From: Sulfuricurvum sp.
GTDB lineage: Bacteria > Campylobacterota > Campylobacteria > Campylobacterales > Sulfurimonadaceae
Length of the DNA: 42,431 nucleotides
Direction of reading: 5' to 3'
Assembly (NCBI RefSeq): GCF_028712165.1
Contig: NZ_JAQTQR010000015.1
Span: 1-42,431, forward strand
Notes under the pieces: generated by a model
Seen by the model: only the letters and a program-made list of their open reading frames with translations
Told to the model about the DNA's origin: nothing
The model's database searches: none
Part shown: positions 6,907 to 30,288 of the stretch, in pieces
Numbering within the stretch: the stretch's first letter is position 1
Layout: each line of letters starts with the position of its first letter
Translations under genes and position numbers: made by a program

Positions 6907-7438
6907 GCACCATCCCTTTGGCTTTTAGATGATCGCTTAAAAGCACTTTTGCAAATCCGTGATTGGCGATAAAGTCACGATGGGCATTTGCATCGCAATA
7001 ATTTGTAACACAAAAAACACCCCCAGCCGGTATACCGAATACTTGTGCCACACGCATTACACTGAAAAATTCCATGTTTTCAAGTCCCATACCGAGTGCT
7101 CTCATTTTCACCATAGCATTTTCACTCGTAGTAATGTAATTCGAGGAGTTGACAATAACATCTTTGATATTTTCCGTTTGTGCCGATACGACATTATCGA
7201 TCGGTGTATAGGCACTTTTATCCAAAAATCCTAACTCGATGTTAGCCGCTGTTTTTGACTCGATAATCTCATGGATTTTGTATTCGCCGTAGCTTCCGGC
7301 ACTCCCGACAAAGAGGATAAATTCGGGTTTCTGAACCAAACAATGGCGGGTCAGATTGATCGCACTATCAATCAATCCGACCCCTATCGGAGTCGCAAAA
7401 TCAAACGTTTCGTTATTGCCGGCACAGAGAATCATCAC
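6899..7438 (-). CDS. purine-nucleoside phosphorylase / MTA-SAH nucleosidase family protein
   Basis: The 179-residue protein has the nucleoside phosphorylase fold of the DeoD/Pfs superfamily: an early [12 protein letters not shown] segment (the GxAG phosphate/ribose loop), a [10 protein letters not shown] segment corresponding to the ExME ribose-contact motif, and [13 protein letters not shown] near the end, where the catalytic Asp usually lies (TNYCD). It is shorter than standard MTAN (about 230), which is usual for this epsilonproteobacterial form as I recall it. The substrate is uncertain. The start lies inside the 3' end of mcrC (26-bp overlap), implying that the defence block was fitted directly against this gene. 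Confidence 0.8.
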
Positions 7439-8657
7439 ACACCTTATTGTTTAGTAAATCGAAGAATACTACTTTTAGATTTAGACCTTGATTTGATTCG
7501 CAAGTTGATTGGTTGAAATAATGAAAATGGTTTTCACTCATTTCATTCTTTTTAGGATAGATCAAATACATATCTTTGCATTGCTCGTATTTTGTACCGT
7601 ATGCGTAAAGCTGATACATATCACTTTGACTTACTCCATTGTTTGTTTTTTCTTCGTCTAAAACTTTCCATTTGGTATCGGCAATAATCATTTTCTCGTC
7701 GTGATGAATCACAATATCAGGTTTGAGTCTGAATTTACCAACACCGTTTTCGTATGCCAAATGGTGTGTTTTATCTTGAGTGGTGATACGGTCAAACTGT
7801 TTACGCAAATATGCTGCTACATAGCTTTCAAATAACAAATTCATATCAAATAAAAGGGCAAAGGAGAGATCATTTCCTTTGTAAGCGCTAAAGCTGTTAT
7901 TTTCTAAAAATATTTTGCACCAAATCAGAACCTGTTCATAATCTTTCATCTGCCGATTGAGTTTGACTTTTGAGAAATCGGTTTTAAAATCAACCGAAGG
8001 GGTAATGGCGTCAAAAACGAATAAAAATTCTCGAATTCGTTGCTGATTACGATTAGAGGAAGATTGCTTATAGAGATAGTGTAACGTCGTTTTTATCAAT
8101 CGATTTTCGACGCGATCACTGCTAAACTCTTCATATTCAACAAAAAATCGCTCTTTATGGACAAAATTTTGTTTAATATGCTCTCCCATTTTGAGCTTAC
8201 CTTTGAGAAAGGGGAGATTCTCTTCACGTGAAATGTAATCATTTTTAATCCCCCTCTGAACAAGTTTAGAAATTTCATCCAAAAACATCGCAATGAAAAT
8301 TTCAAATAATGGCATTTTTGCACTCTGTAAATGAGCTGAGTTAAAACTCCGAAAAGGGGAGTTTTTGAGTGTTCGAAGCATTTTAAATAGAATCTCTTTT
8401 GCTTGTTTCGGATCATCATTTTGTGCGATTTTCGGGAGGATTTCGATGGTTGTGCCATCTTTGGTTTGGATTACACCGACGAAGTTTTGAGCCTGTAAAA
8501 CTTTTCCAAACCCTTTTTTAGTCGTGAGTTTGAGATATTCGGCGGTTGATTCGTTCTCTAAAACGAATCTTTCAATCGCTTCAAAATTTTGAGGCGTTAT
8601 GTAGTGAGGTCTTTGTACATCTTTGCACTGTAAAAAGTCGTACTCTTTGATAATCAT
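7413..8657 (-). CDS. mcrC: McrC-type nuclease subunit of a McrBC restriction system
   Basis: A 414-residue protein with the McrC layout: an N-terminal beta-rich McrB-contacting region (about 1-80) with GFGKVLQAQNFVGVI, a helical middle and a C-terminal PD-(D/E)xK nuclease. The nuclease residues are P313-D314, D327-T328-K329 and Q349 in MYQLYAYG. The protein is recruited by the McrB ring and cuts DNA bearing modified cytosine, or other modified or invading DNA in divergent types. Its ATG overlaps the mcrB stop by ATGA. All motifs are intact, so the gene should be active. Its 3' end runs 26 bp into the next gene. Confidence 0.93.
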   Translation of the reverse strand: MIIKEYDFLQCKDVQRPHYITPQNFEAIERFVLENESTAEYLKLTTKKGFGKVLQAQNFVGVIQTKDGTTIEILPKIAQNDDPKQAKEILFKMLRTLKNSPFRSFNSAHLQSAKMPLFEIFIAMFLDEISKLVQRGIKNDYISREENLPFLKGKLKMGEHIKQNFVHKERFFVEYEEFSSDRVENRLIKTTLHYLYKQSSSNRNQQRIREFLFVFDAITPSVDFKTDFSKVKLNRQMKDYEQVLIWCKIFLENNSFSAYKGNDLSFALLFDMNLLFESYVAAYLRKQFDRITTQDKTHHLAYENGVGKFRLKPDIVIHHDEKMIIADTKWKVLDEEKTNNGVSQSDMYQLYAYGTKYEQCKDMYLIYPKKNEMSENHFHYFNQSTCESNQGLNLKVVFFDLLNNKVCDDSLCRQ

Positions 8658-10651
8658 GCTTGGAGTTTGGTGTAATCAAAACTATCTTTGATTTTGTAGA
8701 TGAATTTTTCTTCTTCGAGATATTCATCAGGTTTGTAATCGAAAATATCCGATTTCACTTCGATTTTATCGATAAACCCATCACCTAACACCATGCGGAT
8801 TTTTTCCCAATCGTCGTAAAAATATTCTTGTAAGAGAGGGAAAATTTTGTTACGCATCACATCGTCCAAATCTTCTTTGGTGTTAATGTCGATGAAATAA
8901 GCGTGACCTATCGTGTGATCCCGATCATAGAGATATTCGACACGCTGATTGATTTTTGAGAGGAGTTTTTTCAAATAAACCCCCTCAATAACTTTGTCAT
9001 TTAATATTTCTAAATCCGGCATCATCTCTTCGAAATGAAATCGTCGACGTAATGCCGTATCCATCAAAGCGATACTACGGTCAGCAGTGTTCATCGTCCC
9101 GATGATGTATAGATTTTGAGGAACGCCAAATTCTTCATTGCTGTAAGGAAGTTTAAGTTTGATCGCTTCATCGGCTCCTATTCGCTTGCTTGGCTCGATT
9201 AGAGTGATAAGTTCTCCGAAGATTTTAGAGATATTACCACGATTGATTTCATCGATGATAAGAATATAGTTTCGCTTTTCTTGATCATGATCTATCTTAT
9301 CGAACAAATTATTTTCGTTGATGATTTCTTTCCAGTCAATATGACCATTAGAAGAACGTCCCAATATAACAGATGAAGATGCGCTCATACTTTGAAATAT
9401 ATAGTCTTCTTCAAGAATATAGTATTCATCAGTTTCTATTGTTTTAACTTTAGAAAGAATTTCATTCTTAAGCTTTTTTGCTGAAAATGTATTTGACTCA
9501 CTTTTTCGAATCTTCGAACCTTTAAGTACTCGAAATACGTTATCACTTTCCTTGATCATTTCAGCTTGTATGTTCAACATCGGGGCATTAAGTTTATATT
9601 TTTTGGGTTCTTGAGGTGCTTTTGTAATCGTTAGATTGTTTTTTGCTTTTTCTGTAAGTTTCTTAAAAATTCCATCTTTGACAGCATAGAGCATCTCTTC
9701 GCCATCTTCATTCCCTTCTTCTCCAATAGGTATGGCTCTAATCCCTTCGACAAACTCCTCATATCCGTAGCTTTGATGGAATGTGATAAATTCAATCTGC
9801 CCTAATTTTCGGTATTCCTCGAATTTGACTTTTGCCTCTTTTCTATCTACTGGAACCGTACCGTCGATAATCGCTAACGCTTTAGTGATTGTGTTATAGG
9901 TTTTTCCAGTACCTGGAGGGCCATATAGGATTTGATTCAGAAGTGTGTTCTTTGACAAAGATCGTTTCTCTAAAGGAATAGATAAATTACAATGGCTCTG
10001 AATATATTGGTGAATCGCTTCAAATAAAGTTATTCTTCCATCTTCTCTTCCTAAAGTTTCATTCCCTCTCCAGCCTTCAAATAAAAACTTGTATAAATTT
10101 TCTTTTGTGATAGCCTCGTATGTTTCTTTTTCGGTGTTAAATACAACTTTATAATTTCCATTCTCACGTTTGACTAAATTAATATTCGTCCCTCTTTGTG
10201 TTTCGAGAGGTAATTTATCACCATTTTCTTCTATAGCACGATCTAAACATGAACATATCAAATCAAATTTTTCTTTATTTGTCATAGATTGCCCTTCTAA
10301 AATATTGAAAACGTATTGATACAATTGTTGATTATTATTCAAAACATAATTAACAGTAGATCTTTTTAGTCCATGAGCTACAAGGTTTTCAAATTGTAGT
10401 AAATTTGCTTTTTCTTCATCAATTTTTGAAATCAAGTCCAGTCTAATCGTTTCATCGTTAATTTCACTAATTTGCATAATATACTCAATGCGAAAAACAC
10501 CCTTTGAGATATATATTAGAACTTTTTGACCTATTTTAGGACTTCCGATACTTTTTCTACTCCAATCATAATATCCCTGATGTTCTATTGTCGGTCTAAC
10601 ATCACCCCATTCACCCTTAGGATTATGGGTTATTACAGCTATCTCATCCAT
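8654..10651 (-). CDS. mcrB: McrB-type AAA+ GTPase with EVE-like N-terminus and internal DUF4357-like domain
   Basis: A 665-residue motor subunit. Residues about 1-120 resemble an EVE/PUA-fold reader of modified bases (WGDVRPTIEHQGYYDW, then KIGQKVLIYISKG). Residues 125-225 are unassigned. The AAA+ module has Walker A GPPGTGKT at 244-251, Walker B ILIIDEINRGN from 463 and the McrB signature MNTADRS at 520-526, followed by LRRRF. Between Walker A and B, residues about 358-442 match DUF4357: FRVLKGSK near the start, then DYIFQSMSASSSVILGR and NGHIDWK. The coding sequence is noticeably AT-rich at 9300-9600 and 10150-10650, consistent with horizontal acquisition. It lies 23 bp downstream of hepT and overlaps mcrC. 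Confidence 0.92.
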   Translation of the reverse strand: MDEIAVITHNPKGEWGDVRPTIEHQGYYDWSRKSIGSPKIGQKVLIYISKGVFRIEYIMQISEINDETIRLDLISKIDEEKANLLQFENLVAHGLKRSTVNYVLNNNQQLYQYVFNILEGQSMTNKEKFDLICSCLDRAIEENGDKLPLETQRGTNINLVKRENGNYKVVFNTEKETYEAITKENLYKFLFEGWRGNETLGREDGRITLFEAIHQYIQSHCNLSIPLEKRSLSKNTLLNQILYGPPGTGKTYNTITKALAIIDGTVPVDRKEAKVKFEEYRKLGQIEFITFHQSYGYEEFVEGIRAIPIGEEGNEDGEEMLYAVKDGIFKKLTEKAKNNLTITKAPQEPKKYKLNAPMLNIQAEMIKESDNVFRVLKGSKIRKSESNTFSAKKLKNEILSKVKTIETDEYYILEEDYIFQSMSASSSVILGRSSNGHIDWKEIINENNLFDKIDHDQEKRNYILIIDEINRGNISKIFGELITLIEPSKRIGADEAIKLKLPYSNEEFGVPQNLYIIGTMNTADRSIALMDTALRRRFHFEEMMPDLEILNDKVIEGVYLKKLLSKINQRVEYLYDRDHTIGHAYFIDINTKEDLDDVMRNKIFPLLQEYFYDDWEKIRMVLGDGFIDKIEVKSDIFDYKPDEYLEEEKFIYKIKDSFDYTKLQA

Positions 10652-10674: not shown

Positions 10675-11052
10675 TTACTTCACTTCATCCAATATCATCA
10701 TCGTCACACTTAATAAACCATCAATCTCATTCGCACAAATCTCAAAAATCGTTTCGGCATCTAGATCAAAATAGTGATGCGACAAAATATCTCTAACCCC
10801 TTTGACCTGTTTCCACGGAATTTGGGGATATTGCTCCAAAAGCTGAAAATCGGTGAGTTTATCAACGTTTTTAAAACCCTCCCCGATAGCGATCAGGCGC
10901 ATCGAAATACTGTCGAGTTTTTCAAGACCCCGTTCGTCTTTGAGAAAATCATCGCTGATTTGGATAGTTTGAAATCGTTGTTGGATTAATTTTAACGAAG
11001 TGATAATATCTTCGAGAGTAGAACGCAGTATCAAAAGCCGATCATTGTGCAT
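10675..11052 (-). CDS. hepT: HepT-like HEPN toxin (DUF86)
   Basis: This 125-residue all-helical HEPN protein carries the RNase motif RX4HXY as R87-DILS-H92-H-Y94. In characterised MntA/HepT pairs the toxin is an RNase and the motif tyrosine is AMPylated by the antitoxin. Y94 would be that residue. The gene overlaps mntA by 11 bp, the usual antitoxin-first order. It lies immediately upstream of mcrB on the same strand, so the toxin-antitoxin pair and the restriction genes may share a transcript. Confidence 0.92.
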   Translation of the reverse strand: MHNDRLLILRSTLEDIITSLKLIQQRFQTIQISDDFLKDERGLEKLDSISMRLIAIGEGFKNVDKLTDFQLLEQYPQIPWKQVKGVRDILSHHYFDLDAETIFEICANEIDGLLSVTMMILDEVK

Positions 11053-26792: not shown

Positions 26793-27254
26793 ATGAAGGC
26801 TAAAACCATTGCCATCGCTGCAATAGCAGTCGCTGTAGGGATACAGTTTATTCCGTATGGCAAAGATCATACCAATCCTCCCGTTATGAGTGAACCACAA
26901 TGGGATTCTCCGAGAACGCAAGAGCTTTTTAACCGCGCTTGTGCCGCCTGCCACTCCAATGAAACAAAATACCCTTGGTACAGCAATGTAGCCCCTGTAT
27001 CATGGCTCCTAGCTCGTGATGTGGATGAAGGCCGTGAACATTTCAATGTCTCAATGTGGGGAATTCAAAAGAAAAATGAAGGCAAAGATGCCGCAAAAGA
27101 GGTACGCGAAGGTGATATGCCGCCATGGTTTTTCCTACCTACGCACCCTGAAGCCAGACTCAGCAGTACAGAGAAACAAGAGCTAATCAGCGGTTTGGAA
27201 AAAACATTCGGGAAAGAGGAAAAAGAAGGTAGTGAAGAGGGAGAAGAGAAGTAA
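26793..27254 (+). CDS. periplasmic haem-binding protein (Haem_bd, c-type)
   Basis: A 153-residue protein with an N-terminal signal or anchor helix (1-20), then a single c-type haem site C50-AA-C53-H54 inside [18 protein letters not shown]. The trailing [16 protein letters not shown] is the hallmark of the Haem_bd family. The tail is highly acidic ([14 protein letters not shown]). It is probably a periplasmic electron carrier or haem sensor. It is convergent with ccoG, a cbb3-oxidase maturation gene, although they are not co-transcribed. Confidence 0.88.
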
Positions 27255-27276: not shown

Positions 27277-27305
27277 AGGAGAGGATTAATCCCCTCCTTA
27301 ATTTT
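27277..27305 (+). terminator. terminator between the haem protein gene and ccoG
   Basis: AGGAGAGG, loop ATTAAT, CCCCTCCT (one A-C mismatch), followed by TAATTTTT. It overlaps the 3' end of ccoG. Confidence 0.6.
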
Positions 27306-28752
27306 TCTCTGCCTCTTCCACCAAATCTTCACGAGGGAAGGTAAAGGTCGATTGTCGTGTGACAACAACTTTATCTTTTGCATCCGTTGCATACGCACGT
27401 ATGGTAATCGGTATAACCGTATCTTTACGATCATCTTTTACTAACATCTCATCGGTATAAAGCACAACTACTTTTTTCTTAACAATACCCGGTTTCACTT
27501 TGAACGGTTTTTCAGGTTCACCGATTTTGATTTTACCTTCCATTCCCTCAGGTGCAATAACATCAAAATAATAATCATGATCTTCATTTAGAGTATTTTG
27601 AACCAAGAATGTGTATGCATTATCAACACGAACTTTCCCATCGTCTGTTTTATTGATTGAATACAAACGGTTTTCTTTGTTGATATTAAGGAGCATATAC
27701 TCTTTCTTACTTCCCATCATCCCCAAAATAACACTGACAATAATTAAGATTGCCATATATCCTATAATTTTCGGGCGGAAATAATGGGTTTTCCCTTTCA
27801 TAAAGAGCGTCTCTTTTTCACTTGACCATTCAACAAGACTCGGTTTTCCGAGTTTACCCATTACTTCAGTACACGCATCAACACATTCCAAACAGTTGAT
27901 ACACTCAAGTTGAAGCCCTTTACGAATATCGATATGGGTCGGACAAACCGTCACACAACTCTCACAGGTAGTACACTCTGCATTAGTATTTACGGCAAGA
28001 AGATCTTTTTGTTTCGTGAATATTTTTTCTTTATTCTCGTCATAAATGTCACCACCGCGATTTGGATTATAAATAGCCATTACCGTATCTTCATCATACA
28101 ATACCGATTGAATACGAGAATAAGGACATACATAGACACAGAAATTCTCTTGTAAGAAAATAACGTCATAGACCAAAAAGGCCACGATTCCAAGAATCGA
28201 CCCTATGAGTACCGTATGATCCATCGGATTTTGGATATATGCCAAGAAATCTTCCGGAGGAACAAAGTACCACATTAAATCCGCTGCCGCAATAAACGCC
28301 AACCCTGTCCATAACAAAATACCGACTAAGCGTTTAATTTTATTCTCAAATTTAGAGTAATCCGGCTCTTGCTGTTTGTTTTTGATCCGTTTTCGAAGAC
28401 CTAAGAGTTTTGTTTCAATAAGATCACGGTAAACGACACGGAAAATAGTCTGTGGACACATCCATCCGCAAAATACCCGTCCGCCCAAAACAGTAATACC
28501 AAAAATACCGATAAAGAGGATCATCAGCAAAAACGGCATCAGATAAAGTTCTTGCATATCAAACTGAATAAACATCAAATGGAGTTTGAGTTTATCAAAG
28601 CTCAGCAAAAAGAGATGATTACCTCCCACTCTTATCCAAGGAACTACCAAGGCAAAAATCGTAATCAGTCCGTAAAACCAATAACGTCTAATTCGCCACG
28701 GTGTCCACCCTGACAGATACTCTTTTCCTTTCGGACTTACTACTTCACTCAT
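27298..28752 (-). CDS. ccoG: cbb3 oxidase accessory ferredoxin-type protein CcoG (RdxA/FixG)
   Basis: A 484-residue membrane protein with about five transmembrane helices in the first 335 residues, the cysteine pairs CGWMCPQ (near 95-100) and CVYVCPY (near 205-210), and two 4Fe-4S motifs: C260-C263-C266-C270 and C284-C287-C290-C294. A C-terminal Ig-like FixG domain follows. In other bacteria CcoG reduces copper for cbb3 oxidase assembly. No ccoNOQP genes are in view. The start overlaps the recombinase-like gene upstream by ATGA. Confidence 0.97.
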   Translation of the reverse strand: MSEVVSPKGKEYLSGWTPWRIRRYWFYGLITIFALVVPWIRVGGNHLFLLSFDKLKLHLMFIQFDMQELYLMPFLLMILFIGIFGITVLGGRVFCGWMCPQTIFRVVYRDLIETKLLGLRKRIKNKQQEPDYSKFENKIKRLVGILLWTGLAFIAAADLMWYFVPPEDFLAYIQNPMDHTVLIGSILGIVAFLVYDVIFLQENFCVYVCPYSRIQSVLYDEDTVMAIYNPNRGGDIYDENKEKIFTKQKDLLAVNTNAECTTCESCVTVCPTHIDIRKGLQLECINCLECVDACTEVMGKLGKPSLVEWSSEKETLFMKGKTHYFRPKIIGYMAILIIVSVILGMMGSKKEYMLLNINKENRLYSINKTDDGKVRVDNAYTFLVQNTLNEDHDYYFDVIAPEGMEGKIKIGEPEKPFKVKPGIVKKKVVVLYTDEMLVKDDRKDTVIPITIRAYATDAKDKVVVTRQSTFTFPREDLVEEAEKN

Positions 28753-29414
28753 AACACTGTTTCCTTCGAATTAATTTCAATATTCGGGCATCGAATCGTA
28801 CCGATAACCATTGCTTCCGCATCAACATCATCTCCGATGCCAATTACACCGCTTACAACCTCTTTAAGTTCACGTGATTCAATATAGTCTTTCAGTGAGC
28901 TTCGGCTCACTCCTAACACCCGTGCAATCTCGCTCACACTTTTTCGTTTCTTCAATAAATCGATAATCTGTTCTAAATACATATCGAATTTTGATGACGA
29001 TTTAGATCCTTTTGGTCTTCCGATCCCTTTTTTGGACTCATCCTGAAGGACCTGACGTAATTGATCAATAAGACCTAAAACGACCATTGTATCACTTTTG
29101 CGGTCGATTACCACACCCGGTTTGACAAAATGTATGGTATTGTCATTTTTAAGAAGACAGCTAAACATTTGAACCAAATCCTCGATATAGCTGCTTAATG
29201 TCCATGTATCGTAAATGATTAATGTATCTCCATTGAGCGAACGAAAAAATCGAACTACTTCATGCCGATCGGCTATCCGTTTATTCTGAGAAGTTTGATC
29301 CACTAACTCTTCCTGGATCACAATCTCTTTTTGATCGGCATAACCGTTAATCAATTTAAGCTGCTCATAAACACCATCGAAATCTTTATCGGGACGGATA
29401 TAACTGACGGTCAT
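28749..29414 (-). CDS. serine-recombinase-like DNA-binding protein without catalytic residues
   Basis: The protein has 221 residues: a resolvase/invertase-like fold (about 1-125), the linker GRPKGSK (132-138), a Hin-type helix-turn-helix (about 158-180; SVSEIARVLGVSRSSLKDYI) and a 40-residue tail. The resolvase opening YxRVS, which carries the nucleophilic serine, reads YIRPD (5-9), and the DRLxR arginines are replaced by DTWTLSSYIEDL (from 69). It therefore should not recombine DNA. It is translationally coupled to ccoG by ATGA, and a 12-bp perfect inverted repeat sits 30 bp upstream of its start. A transcription regulator derived from a recombinase is the most economical reading. Confidence 0.82.
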   Translation of the reverse strand: MTVSYIRPDKDFDGVYEQLKLINGYADQKEIVIQEELVDQTSQNKRIADRHEVVRFFRSLNGDTLIIYDTWTLSSYIEDLVQMFSCLLKNDNTIHFVKPGVVIDRKSDTMVVLGLIDQLRQVLQDESKKGIGRPKGSKSSSKFDMYLEQIIDLLKKRKSVSEIARVLGVSRSSLKDYIESRELKEVVSGVIGIGDDVDAEAMVIGTIRCPNIEINSKETVL

Positions 29415-29443: not shown

Positions 29444-29477
29444 TTTCATCGTCATTTTACCAACTATGACGATGAAA
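29444..29477 (-). promoter_or_regulatory. 12-bp perfect inverted repeat upstream of the recombinase-like gene
   Basis: TTTCATCGTCAT (29444-29455), 10-bp spacer, ATGACGATGAAA (29466-29477). A further CGTCAT occurs at 29501-29506 at the murB end. The two halves are about two helical turns apart centre to centre, which suits a dimeric DNA-binding protein, probably the adjacent recombinase-like regulator acting on its own operon. Read as RNA it would also fold as a hairpin, so attenuation is the alternative. Confidence 0.7.
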
Positions 29478-29502
29478 GTCAATACAAAAGATTATTTTTT
29501 CG

Positions 29503-30288
29503 TCATTTTTTAGTATCGATAATAACAACTTCGCATTGAAGATCAATATTGAACTGTGCTTTTACACGCTTTTTGGCTTCTTCTATAAGACTCAAAGCAT
29601 CTGCATAGGTTCCTCCGCCGGTATTGACGAGAAAATTAGCATGTACGTCACTAAAAGCCATTGCCCCGACGCGCTTTCCTTTTAATCCGACCGCTTCAAT
29701 AAGCCGTCCCGCATAATCATTCGGAGGATTTTTAAAACAGCTTCCCGCACTCGGGTCACTCGGCTGATTCGAACGCATCTGTGCAAACATATCGTACTGA
29801 TCAACCGAATACCCTTTTTGCGCTTCGAATATGGCTTCGAAAACCACTTCATTTATTGATGTTTTACGATAGCCGTATTCAATCTCATCTTTTTGTTTCC
29901 AACCGCTTTGCGTACGAATGGCGATAAGATGGTTAAAAATTTCGTATTCTTTCAGCCCTGCATTCATTTTGAGCATTCCGCCAAGAGTTCCGGGGAGTTT
30001 CGAGAGATATTCGAAGTGGGCAATATTATGTTTTTTGCAAAACGAAACTACACGTCCACCTGGAGTCGCAGCACCTACATGAAGCCCGTCTTCTTCAAGG
30101 TGGATAAAATCATAATCTTTGGAGAGGATCATCAATGGCGGCGGTGTAGGGGAAACGAGAATATTATTGGCAGCACCTACGATCAAATGCCCTTCGGGGA
30201 CAATATCATTTTCGATTAATGCTACCTCGACAGCGGGGCCGATTCGAATGGAACTAAACTTGGAGAAATCAATAGTTTTGGTGTTCAT
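29503..30288 (-). CDS. murB: UDP-N-acetylenolpyruvoylglucosamine reductase
   Basis: A 261-residue flavoenzyme that reduces UNAG-enolpyruvate to UDP-MurNAc. Segments include the FAD-binding FSSIRIGP and GAANNILV, the LSKLPGTLGGMLKMNAG substrate loop, AGSCFKNP with the catalytic Ser/Cys position, and GGGTYADALSLIEEAK at the C-terminus. It overlaps fliQ by ATGA, and fliQ-murB adjacency is shared with Campylobacter. Confidence 0.97.
   Translation of the reverse strand: MNTKTIDFSKFSSIRIGPAVEVALIENDIVPEGHLIVGAANNILVSPTPPPLMILSKDYDFIHLEEDGLHVGAATPGGRVVSFCKKHNIAHFEYLSKLPGTLGGMLKMNAGLKEYEIFNHLIAIRTQSGWKQKDEIEYGYRKTSINEVVFEAIFEAQKGYSVDQYDMFAQMRSNQPSDPSAGSCFKNPPNDYAGRLIEAVGLKGKRVGAMAFSDVHANFLVNTGGGTYADALSLIEEAKKRVKAQFNIDLQCEVVIIDTKK

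Follow-up and report, generated by a model that had tools for sequence, protein, structure and literature searches.

The locus examined here raises the question of what a gene resembling a serine recombinase does immediately upstream of ccoG in Sulfuricurvum sp., a member of a sulfur-oxidising genus. The gene lies within a window comprising the whole stretch of DNA that was analysed, 42,431 nucleotides in length. A first-pass annotation read it as a catalytically dead, domesticated recombinase, coupled by an ATGA overlap to ccoG and turned into a regulator of cytochrome oxidase maturation. The overlap is as described, with the TGA stop codon of the regulator gene and the ATG start codon of ccoG falling within positions 28749-28752, and the identity of ccoG is secure (Fer4_18: 1.6e-50; FixG_C: 3e-14). 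Alignments with active enzymes also bear out the reading of the YxRVS nucleophile motif as YIRPD, at a position where serine is not conserved in the 95 orthologs, and the loss of the DRLxR residues, with DTWTLSS found where active enzymes carry ELxRLGR, while the GRPKG arm and the helix-turn-helix (HTH) are indeed retained. Measured against the criteria of a resolvase fold with a C-terminal HTH, a catalytic serine within YxRxS and the DRLxR active-site residues, the protein meets the first and fails the other two. The description as catalytically dead holds for the serine and the DRLxR set, but two active-site arginines are still present by alignment, namely R7, the equivalent of gamma-delta R8 (arginine in 84/95 and lysine in 10/95 orthologs), and R50, the equivalent of gamma-delta R45 (arginine in 95/95).

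Table 1. Features of the regulator-ccoG locus, with positions counted from the first nucleotide of the window.
Feature	Position	Strand	Remark
Regulator ORF, proposed transcription factor	28749..29414	-	221-aa catalytically dead serine-recombinase-fold protein
YIRPD, residues 5-9	29388..29402	-	Occupies the site of the YxRVS nucleophile motif, without its serine
GRPKG extended arm, residues 132-136	29007..29021	-	G, R, P and last G invariant
Helix-turn-helix domain, residues ~144-180	28875..28985	-	From Pfam, ortholog alignment and AlphaFold model
Invariant C86 codon	29157..29159	-	95/95 orthologs
Invariant C209 codon	28788..28790	-	95/95 orthologs; usually part of a CP, within a C-terminal tail whose other residues vary
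ccoG, cbb3 oxidase assembly factor / cupric reductase	27298..28752	-	Overlaps regulator by ATGA
Proposed operator, 39-bp convergent TGACG box pair	29467..29505	.	Distal box overlaps murB 3' end
Box A, TGACGAAAAAA	29495..29505	-	
Box B, TGACGATGAAA	29467..29477	+	Between -35 and -10 elements
Box C, TGACGATGAAA	29444..29454	-	Abuts -10 element
Predicted sigma-70-type promoter of regulator-ccoG operon, TTGACT-17-TAAAAT	29454..29482	-	10/12 consensus matches

The fold of the regulator is secure because the AlphaFold model (mean pLDDT 82.7) matches the Tn3, gamma-delta and Sin resolvases in the PDB with a probability of 1.00, and a PDB search with a profile of 60 orthologs agrees in retrieving the Sin, gamma-delta and Tn3 resolvases. 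The Pfam matches of the whole protein (Resolvase: 6.2e-4; HTH_7: 7.8e-4) are real but below the cut-offs. "Hin-like", as the HTH had been called, proved a loose label, as the top NCBIfam match is to the Master DNA invertase Mpi family (NF009949; residues 1-184; e-value: 3e-11), itself far below threshold with a score of 43 bits where 272 are required, and the regulator lacks the catalytic serine. With the sequence alone as query, PDB matches to a CAP-repeat protein were obtained that involve the HTH only, and these were rejected. The dN/dS ratio against four close Sulfuricurvum copies is 0.03-0.06, an approximate value given that dS is near saturation, and on this comparative evidence the gene is under strong purifying selection and is therefore not a decaying pseudogene. 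Sixteen residues are invariant across 60 diverse orthologs, including C86, C209, R50 and the GRP.G arm.

Matches to the regulator are present in 140 of the 299 Campylobacterales genomes searched, and strong orthologs in 120, counted after 20 weak matches, mostly belonging to the f9 group, had been set aside. ccoG exceeds its cut-off in 256/299 genomes and is thus commoner than the regulator, indicating that it can do without this partner. Conservation of the pair, which had been proposed as a check on the reading, was confirmed within the Campylobacterales, where 90/95 orthologs are followed immediately by an intact ccoG in the same orientation. Among the five exceptions, three are genes cut by contig ends (L048, L055 and L061), one has a frameshifted ccoG (L058) and in one an SQR-like flavoprotein gene replaces ccoG (L053). 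Two members found later, beyond the 95 (L224 and L225), also adjoin ccoG. In one further genome (G128; L226:2555-4650) the regulator gene is broken by stops and represents a pseudogene, with ccoG intact downstream. A gene for a haem-binding domain protein (PF14376; 3.8e-38) is found at 26793-27254 on the forward strand of the window, convergent with ccoG.

In a tree for which three other recombinase-like sequences served as outgroup, the ccoG-linked regulators and the f17 copies form one clade (100/99), separate from the f9 clade, which fits a single domestication of the family. The distant f9 matches were rejected as family members, as they form a separate clade, lack C86 and C209, are not linked to ccoG and carry other boxes. 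The f17 copies are located away from ccoG and still have boxes at their own promoters, with 39-mers (the convergent box pair of Table 1) also present in this lineage, and the boxes therefore go with the regulator rather than with ccoG. A separate clade of recombinase-like proteins (L108, L110-L121 and L125; homolog near position 8000), in which the catalytic serine is mostly replaced, precedes rplI-hslV-hslU in several genomes among those examined, has repeated AACATTTTGTATAA boxes at its own promoters and is perhaps a second domesticated regulator. Elsewhere in the window, two genes resembling McrC and McrB restriction components (7413-10651, reverse strand) and, upstream of these, a 125-aa HEPN/DUF86-like ORF (10675-11052) were recognised by eye only.

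The promoters of the family share a box with the consensus TGACGAwwAAA, usually as a convergent pair measuring 39 bp end to end, while tandem boxes 20-21 bp apart are found in f4, f6 and some f7 members. The -35 and -10 elements of the predicted regulator-ccoG promoter recur in orthologs, and only 0.02 occurrences of the 39-bp pair would be expected in the window by chance. Across 97 clade promoters TGACG/CGTCA boxes number 220, compared with six across 19 outside-group promoters, a descriptive count since the two sets differ in relatedness. The strict 39-mer is present in 46/120 genomes with a strong ortholog against 0/179 without (Fisher p = 1e-21, which is only a guide as related genomes are not independent), and a reversed-pattern control was found in 0/299 genomes. 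Many of the 74/120 strong-ortholog genomes that lack the strict 39-mer have degenerate or tandem boxes, while at a few of the regulator's own promoters no box is seen. When the tandem pattern was searched across the order, it was found almost only at the regulator's own promoters (f4, f6 and some f7), and no extra regulon was revealed. An exact 12-bp palindrome, TTTCATCGTCAT-N10-ATGACGATGAAA, was considered as a general operator and rejected, as it is perfect in the window alone and has close forms in a few relatives; the shared operator forms are the 39-mer and the tandem boxes. The family thus meets two criteria for an autoregulatory transcription factor, in that a conserved operator is found at its own promoter, and this operator co-occurs with the regulator gene and recurs at other genes.

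In Sulfuricurvum, a second 39-mer is usually located 75-80 bp upstream of a gene for a 65-aa membrane protein, followed by an M48 peptidase gene, and in other Sulfurimonadaceae genera a 39-mer precedes the same membrane-protein gene (62-69 aa) by ~70-80 bp. Proteins of this 62-69-aa family (e.g. L157:3989-4186 and L191:5088-5357) contain the motif EPTLxxIxDYDTLKG and have no Pfam match. In f17 the last gene of the cydAB operon, which starts with a 39-mer (L191), encodes a similar protein, and the family may thus belong with cytochrome bd. The small membrane-protein gene is retained, with no box upstream, in three relatives that have no regulator, while G276 and G159 lack the full box pair before this gene despite having the regulator, so that the relation between regulator and box is not absolute. 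In f7, the 39-mer is found upstream of DUF4492-cydA-cydB (L189 and L190) and of NifX-like-DUF4492-cydA-cydB (L188), and cydAB is preceded by a 39-mer in two families. Putative targets in single lineages are a rhodanese gene (L182 and L183), an SQR-like flavoprotein gene (L184; top PDB match: sulfide-quinone reductase 3hyv; 5e-31), SLAC1/TehA-DUF302 (L187) and DUF6858 (L185). Several targets are confined to one genus or family, and some are based on one or two genomes. Independent operon links tie the same functions to the regulator itself: the SQR-like flavoprotein in the regulator-(SQR-like) operon of L053 is 66% identical to the L184 target, the TehA of the regulator-ccoG-TehA operon of L224 is 45% identical to the L187 target, and in f17 the regulator adjoins TehA-DUF302, with genes for the copper chaperones PCuAC and SCO1 nearby. 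The ccoN/ccoNOQP promoter was rejected as a conserved target, with 4/20 readable Sulfuricurvum promoters having one box near -260, a lone TGACG elsewhere in two of the 20 and none in the rest.

The initial proposal, that a recombinase was domesticated and now has a regulatory role at ccoG, is therefore supported by the family-wide loss of the serine, the order-wide linkage to ccoG and an operator at the gene's own promoter which tracks the gene over 299 genomes. Its view of the regulon was too narrow, as the predicted targets extend past cbb3 maturation to cydAB, SQR-like, rhodanese, SLAC1/TehA and small membrane-protein genes. The earlier reading is right in kind; what it had missed were the cysteines, the operator and the broader set of target genes.

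We propose that one capture of a small serine recombinase in the Campylobacterales lineage was followed by the loss of catalysis and conversion into a transcription factor. The regulator would bind TGACGAwwAAA half-sites in the manner known from the sites of resolvases and Hin, its HTH recognising TGACG through the major groove and its GRPKG arm occupying the minor groove of the A-rich part. This assignment is an inference from the half-site layout, with specific TGACG outside and the A-tract inside, and has its basis in the structures of resolvases and Hin. The operator would consist of two half-sites spanning 39 bp end to end, or of tandem boxes 20-21 bp apart. Resolvase sites are 25-34 bp in length, and the dimer must therefore be placed differently on the longer operator. 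Box B is placed inside the predicted promoter, separating its -35 element from its -10 element, and box C lies against the latter, an arrangement which suggests repression, and the regulator most likely represses its own operon, including ccoG. The same operator is found in different families before oxidase and sulfide genes (the membrane-protein, cydAB, SQR-like, rhodanese and TehA/SLAC1 genes), and the regulator may thus coordinate sulfide handling with the terminal oxidases.

The likely sensor is the C86/C209 pair, where cross-linking through a disulfide or polysulfide, or metal binding, could free the regulator from DNA. In the AlphaFold model the residues on both sides of C209 are disordered, while residues 208-210 do not fall below pLDDT 50; this is a weak hint that they dock, and a C86-C209 contact has not been shown. 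The f17 copies lack both cysteines yet keep their boxes, the outlier L224 has C86 and lacks C209, and L226 is a pseudogene, so the cysteines are dispensable for some functions. Gating of the regulator by its cysteines is, on balance, somewhat probable. Reactive sulfur or thiol redox is our first-choice signal and copper the second, with sensing itself inferred; reactive sulfur in particular remains possible rather than probable.

The fold, the loss of catalytic residues, the linkage, the cysteines, the boxes and the co-occurrence of box and gene have been established from sequence. That the protein is a DNA-binding regulator of ccoG and the box-bearing genes is very probable, with DNA binding and the effect on transcription inferred in the absence of binding, expression or redox data. 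The explanation as a whole, in which a domesticated recombinase became a cysteine-gated transcription factor that controls its own gene along with terminal-oxidase and sulfide genes, is reasonably probable, with binding, repression and sensing inferred.

As CcoG is a cupric reductase required for the cbb3 oxidase (PMC7558416), Cu(I) is the main rival signal. The same DNA-binding repressor could bind Cu(I) through its cysteines, with copper starvation derepressing ccoG and the copper-free bd oxidase, and the role of CcoG, the f17 homologs near the PCuAC and SCO1 genes and the presence of cydAB among the targets are all in keeping with this. We nevertheless consider it unlikely, since copper leaves the SQR-like and rhodanese targets unexplained, the f17 copies beside the copper genes are those that lack both conserved cysteines, and conserved targeting does not extend to the ccoN promoter. 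The boxes might instead be bound by another co-distributed regulator, with the dead recombinase only stabilising or bending DNA, or acting post-translationally on CcoG. Binding has not been shown and TGACG boxes alone do not identify their protein, but the boxes are located at the regulator's own promoter and accompany it in f17, away from ccoG, the 39-mer is absent in 179/179 genomes without a strong ortholog, and the TGACG and A-tract layout suits the HTH and GRPKG arm; this alternative is quite improbable.

An active recombinase using a substitute nucleophile to invert or resolve DNA at paired boxes could draw on the two remaining active-site arginine equivalents (R7 and R50). It is hardly credible where no conserved serine occupies the nucleophile position, the DRLxR set is lost and the 39-mers are single sites before different genes rather than paired around a segment. 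A passive, functionless relic held by its place in the ccoG operon might account for the L226 pseudogene and for relatives missing the gene, and is strongly disfavoured, to the point of being scarcely tenable, by the selection on the sequence (the low dN/dS and the invariant residues across diverse orthologs) and by conserved operators at unlinked genes.

The regulator would clearly exemplify the conversion of a serine recombinase into a chromosomal transcription factor, one which genome annotation would call a recombinase and overlook. It looks like a controller of oxygen-reducing enzymes in sulfur-oxidising bacteria, and its concrete operator, short target list and two mutable cysteines make the oxygen/sulfide balance directly testable. 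A literature search limited to open-licence papers found no paper on the pairing of ccoG with a resolvase and no precedent for a serine recombinase turned regulator of such kind.

Dead recombinases acting as repressors are already known from MrpR, the SP-beta prophage master repressor, which is a recombinase without catalysis turned DNA-binding repressor (PMC10516654), while no paper on a serine-recombinase version was found in the open-licence literature. MrpR resembles the regulator in its lost catalysis and its role as a DNA-binding repressor, and differs in its tyrosine-recombinase fold and phage regulon; it is not known from that source (PMC10516654) to have a cysteine pair. Functional parallels are found in SqrR, BigR and YgaV, repressors that leave the DNA once two of their cysteines have been linked by sulfide or persulfide; the family is linked to sqr and rhodanese genes, and YgaV controls cytochrome bd and has one of its cysteines in a C-terminal CP (PMC9774250). 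The regulator similarly has a pair of conserved cysteines, of which one lies in a C-terminal CP as in YgaV, and links to bd, sqr-type and rhodanese genes, but it fails the criterion of a homologous fold, its serine-recombinase fold being unrelated. The fold of SqrR, BigR and YgaV is of the ArsR type. Any likeness is hypothetical and functional only, with the cysteine chemistry inferred. We tentatively suggest a thiol-gated transcription factor family built on a dead serine recombinase, which would sense sulfide-derived species, co-regulate cbb3 maturation, cytochrome bd and sulfide oxidation in sulfur-oxidising Campylobacterales and be convergent with SqrR. The Tn3/gamma-delta resolvase (TnpR), Sin and Hin share with the regulator the fold, the domain order, a GRPKG-like arm and the HTH, and their half-sites, with outer specific bases and an inner A-tract, are like its boxes; resolvases repress their own genes too. 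In contrast to these enzymes, the regulator has lost the catalytic serine and DRLxR, has two invariant cysteines and has its operators, a longer 39-bp pair, at chromosomal metabolic genes.
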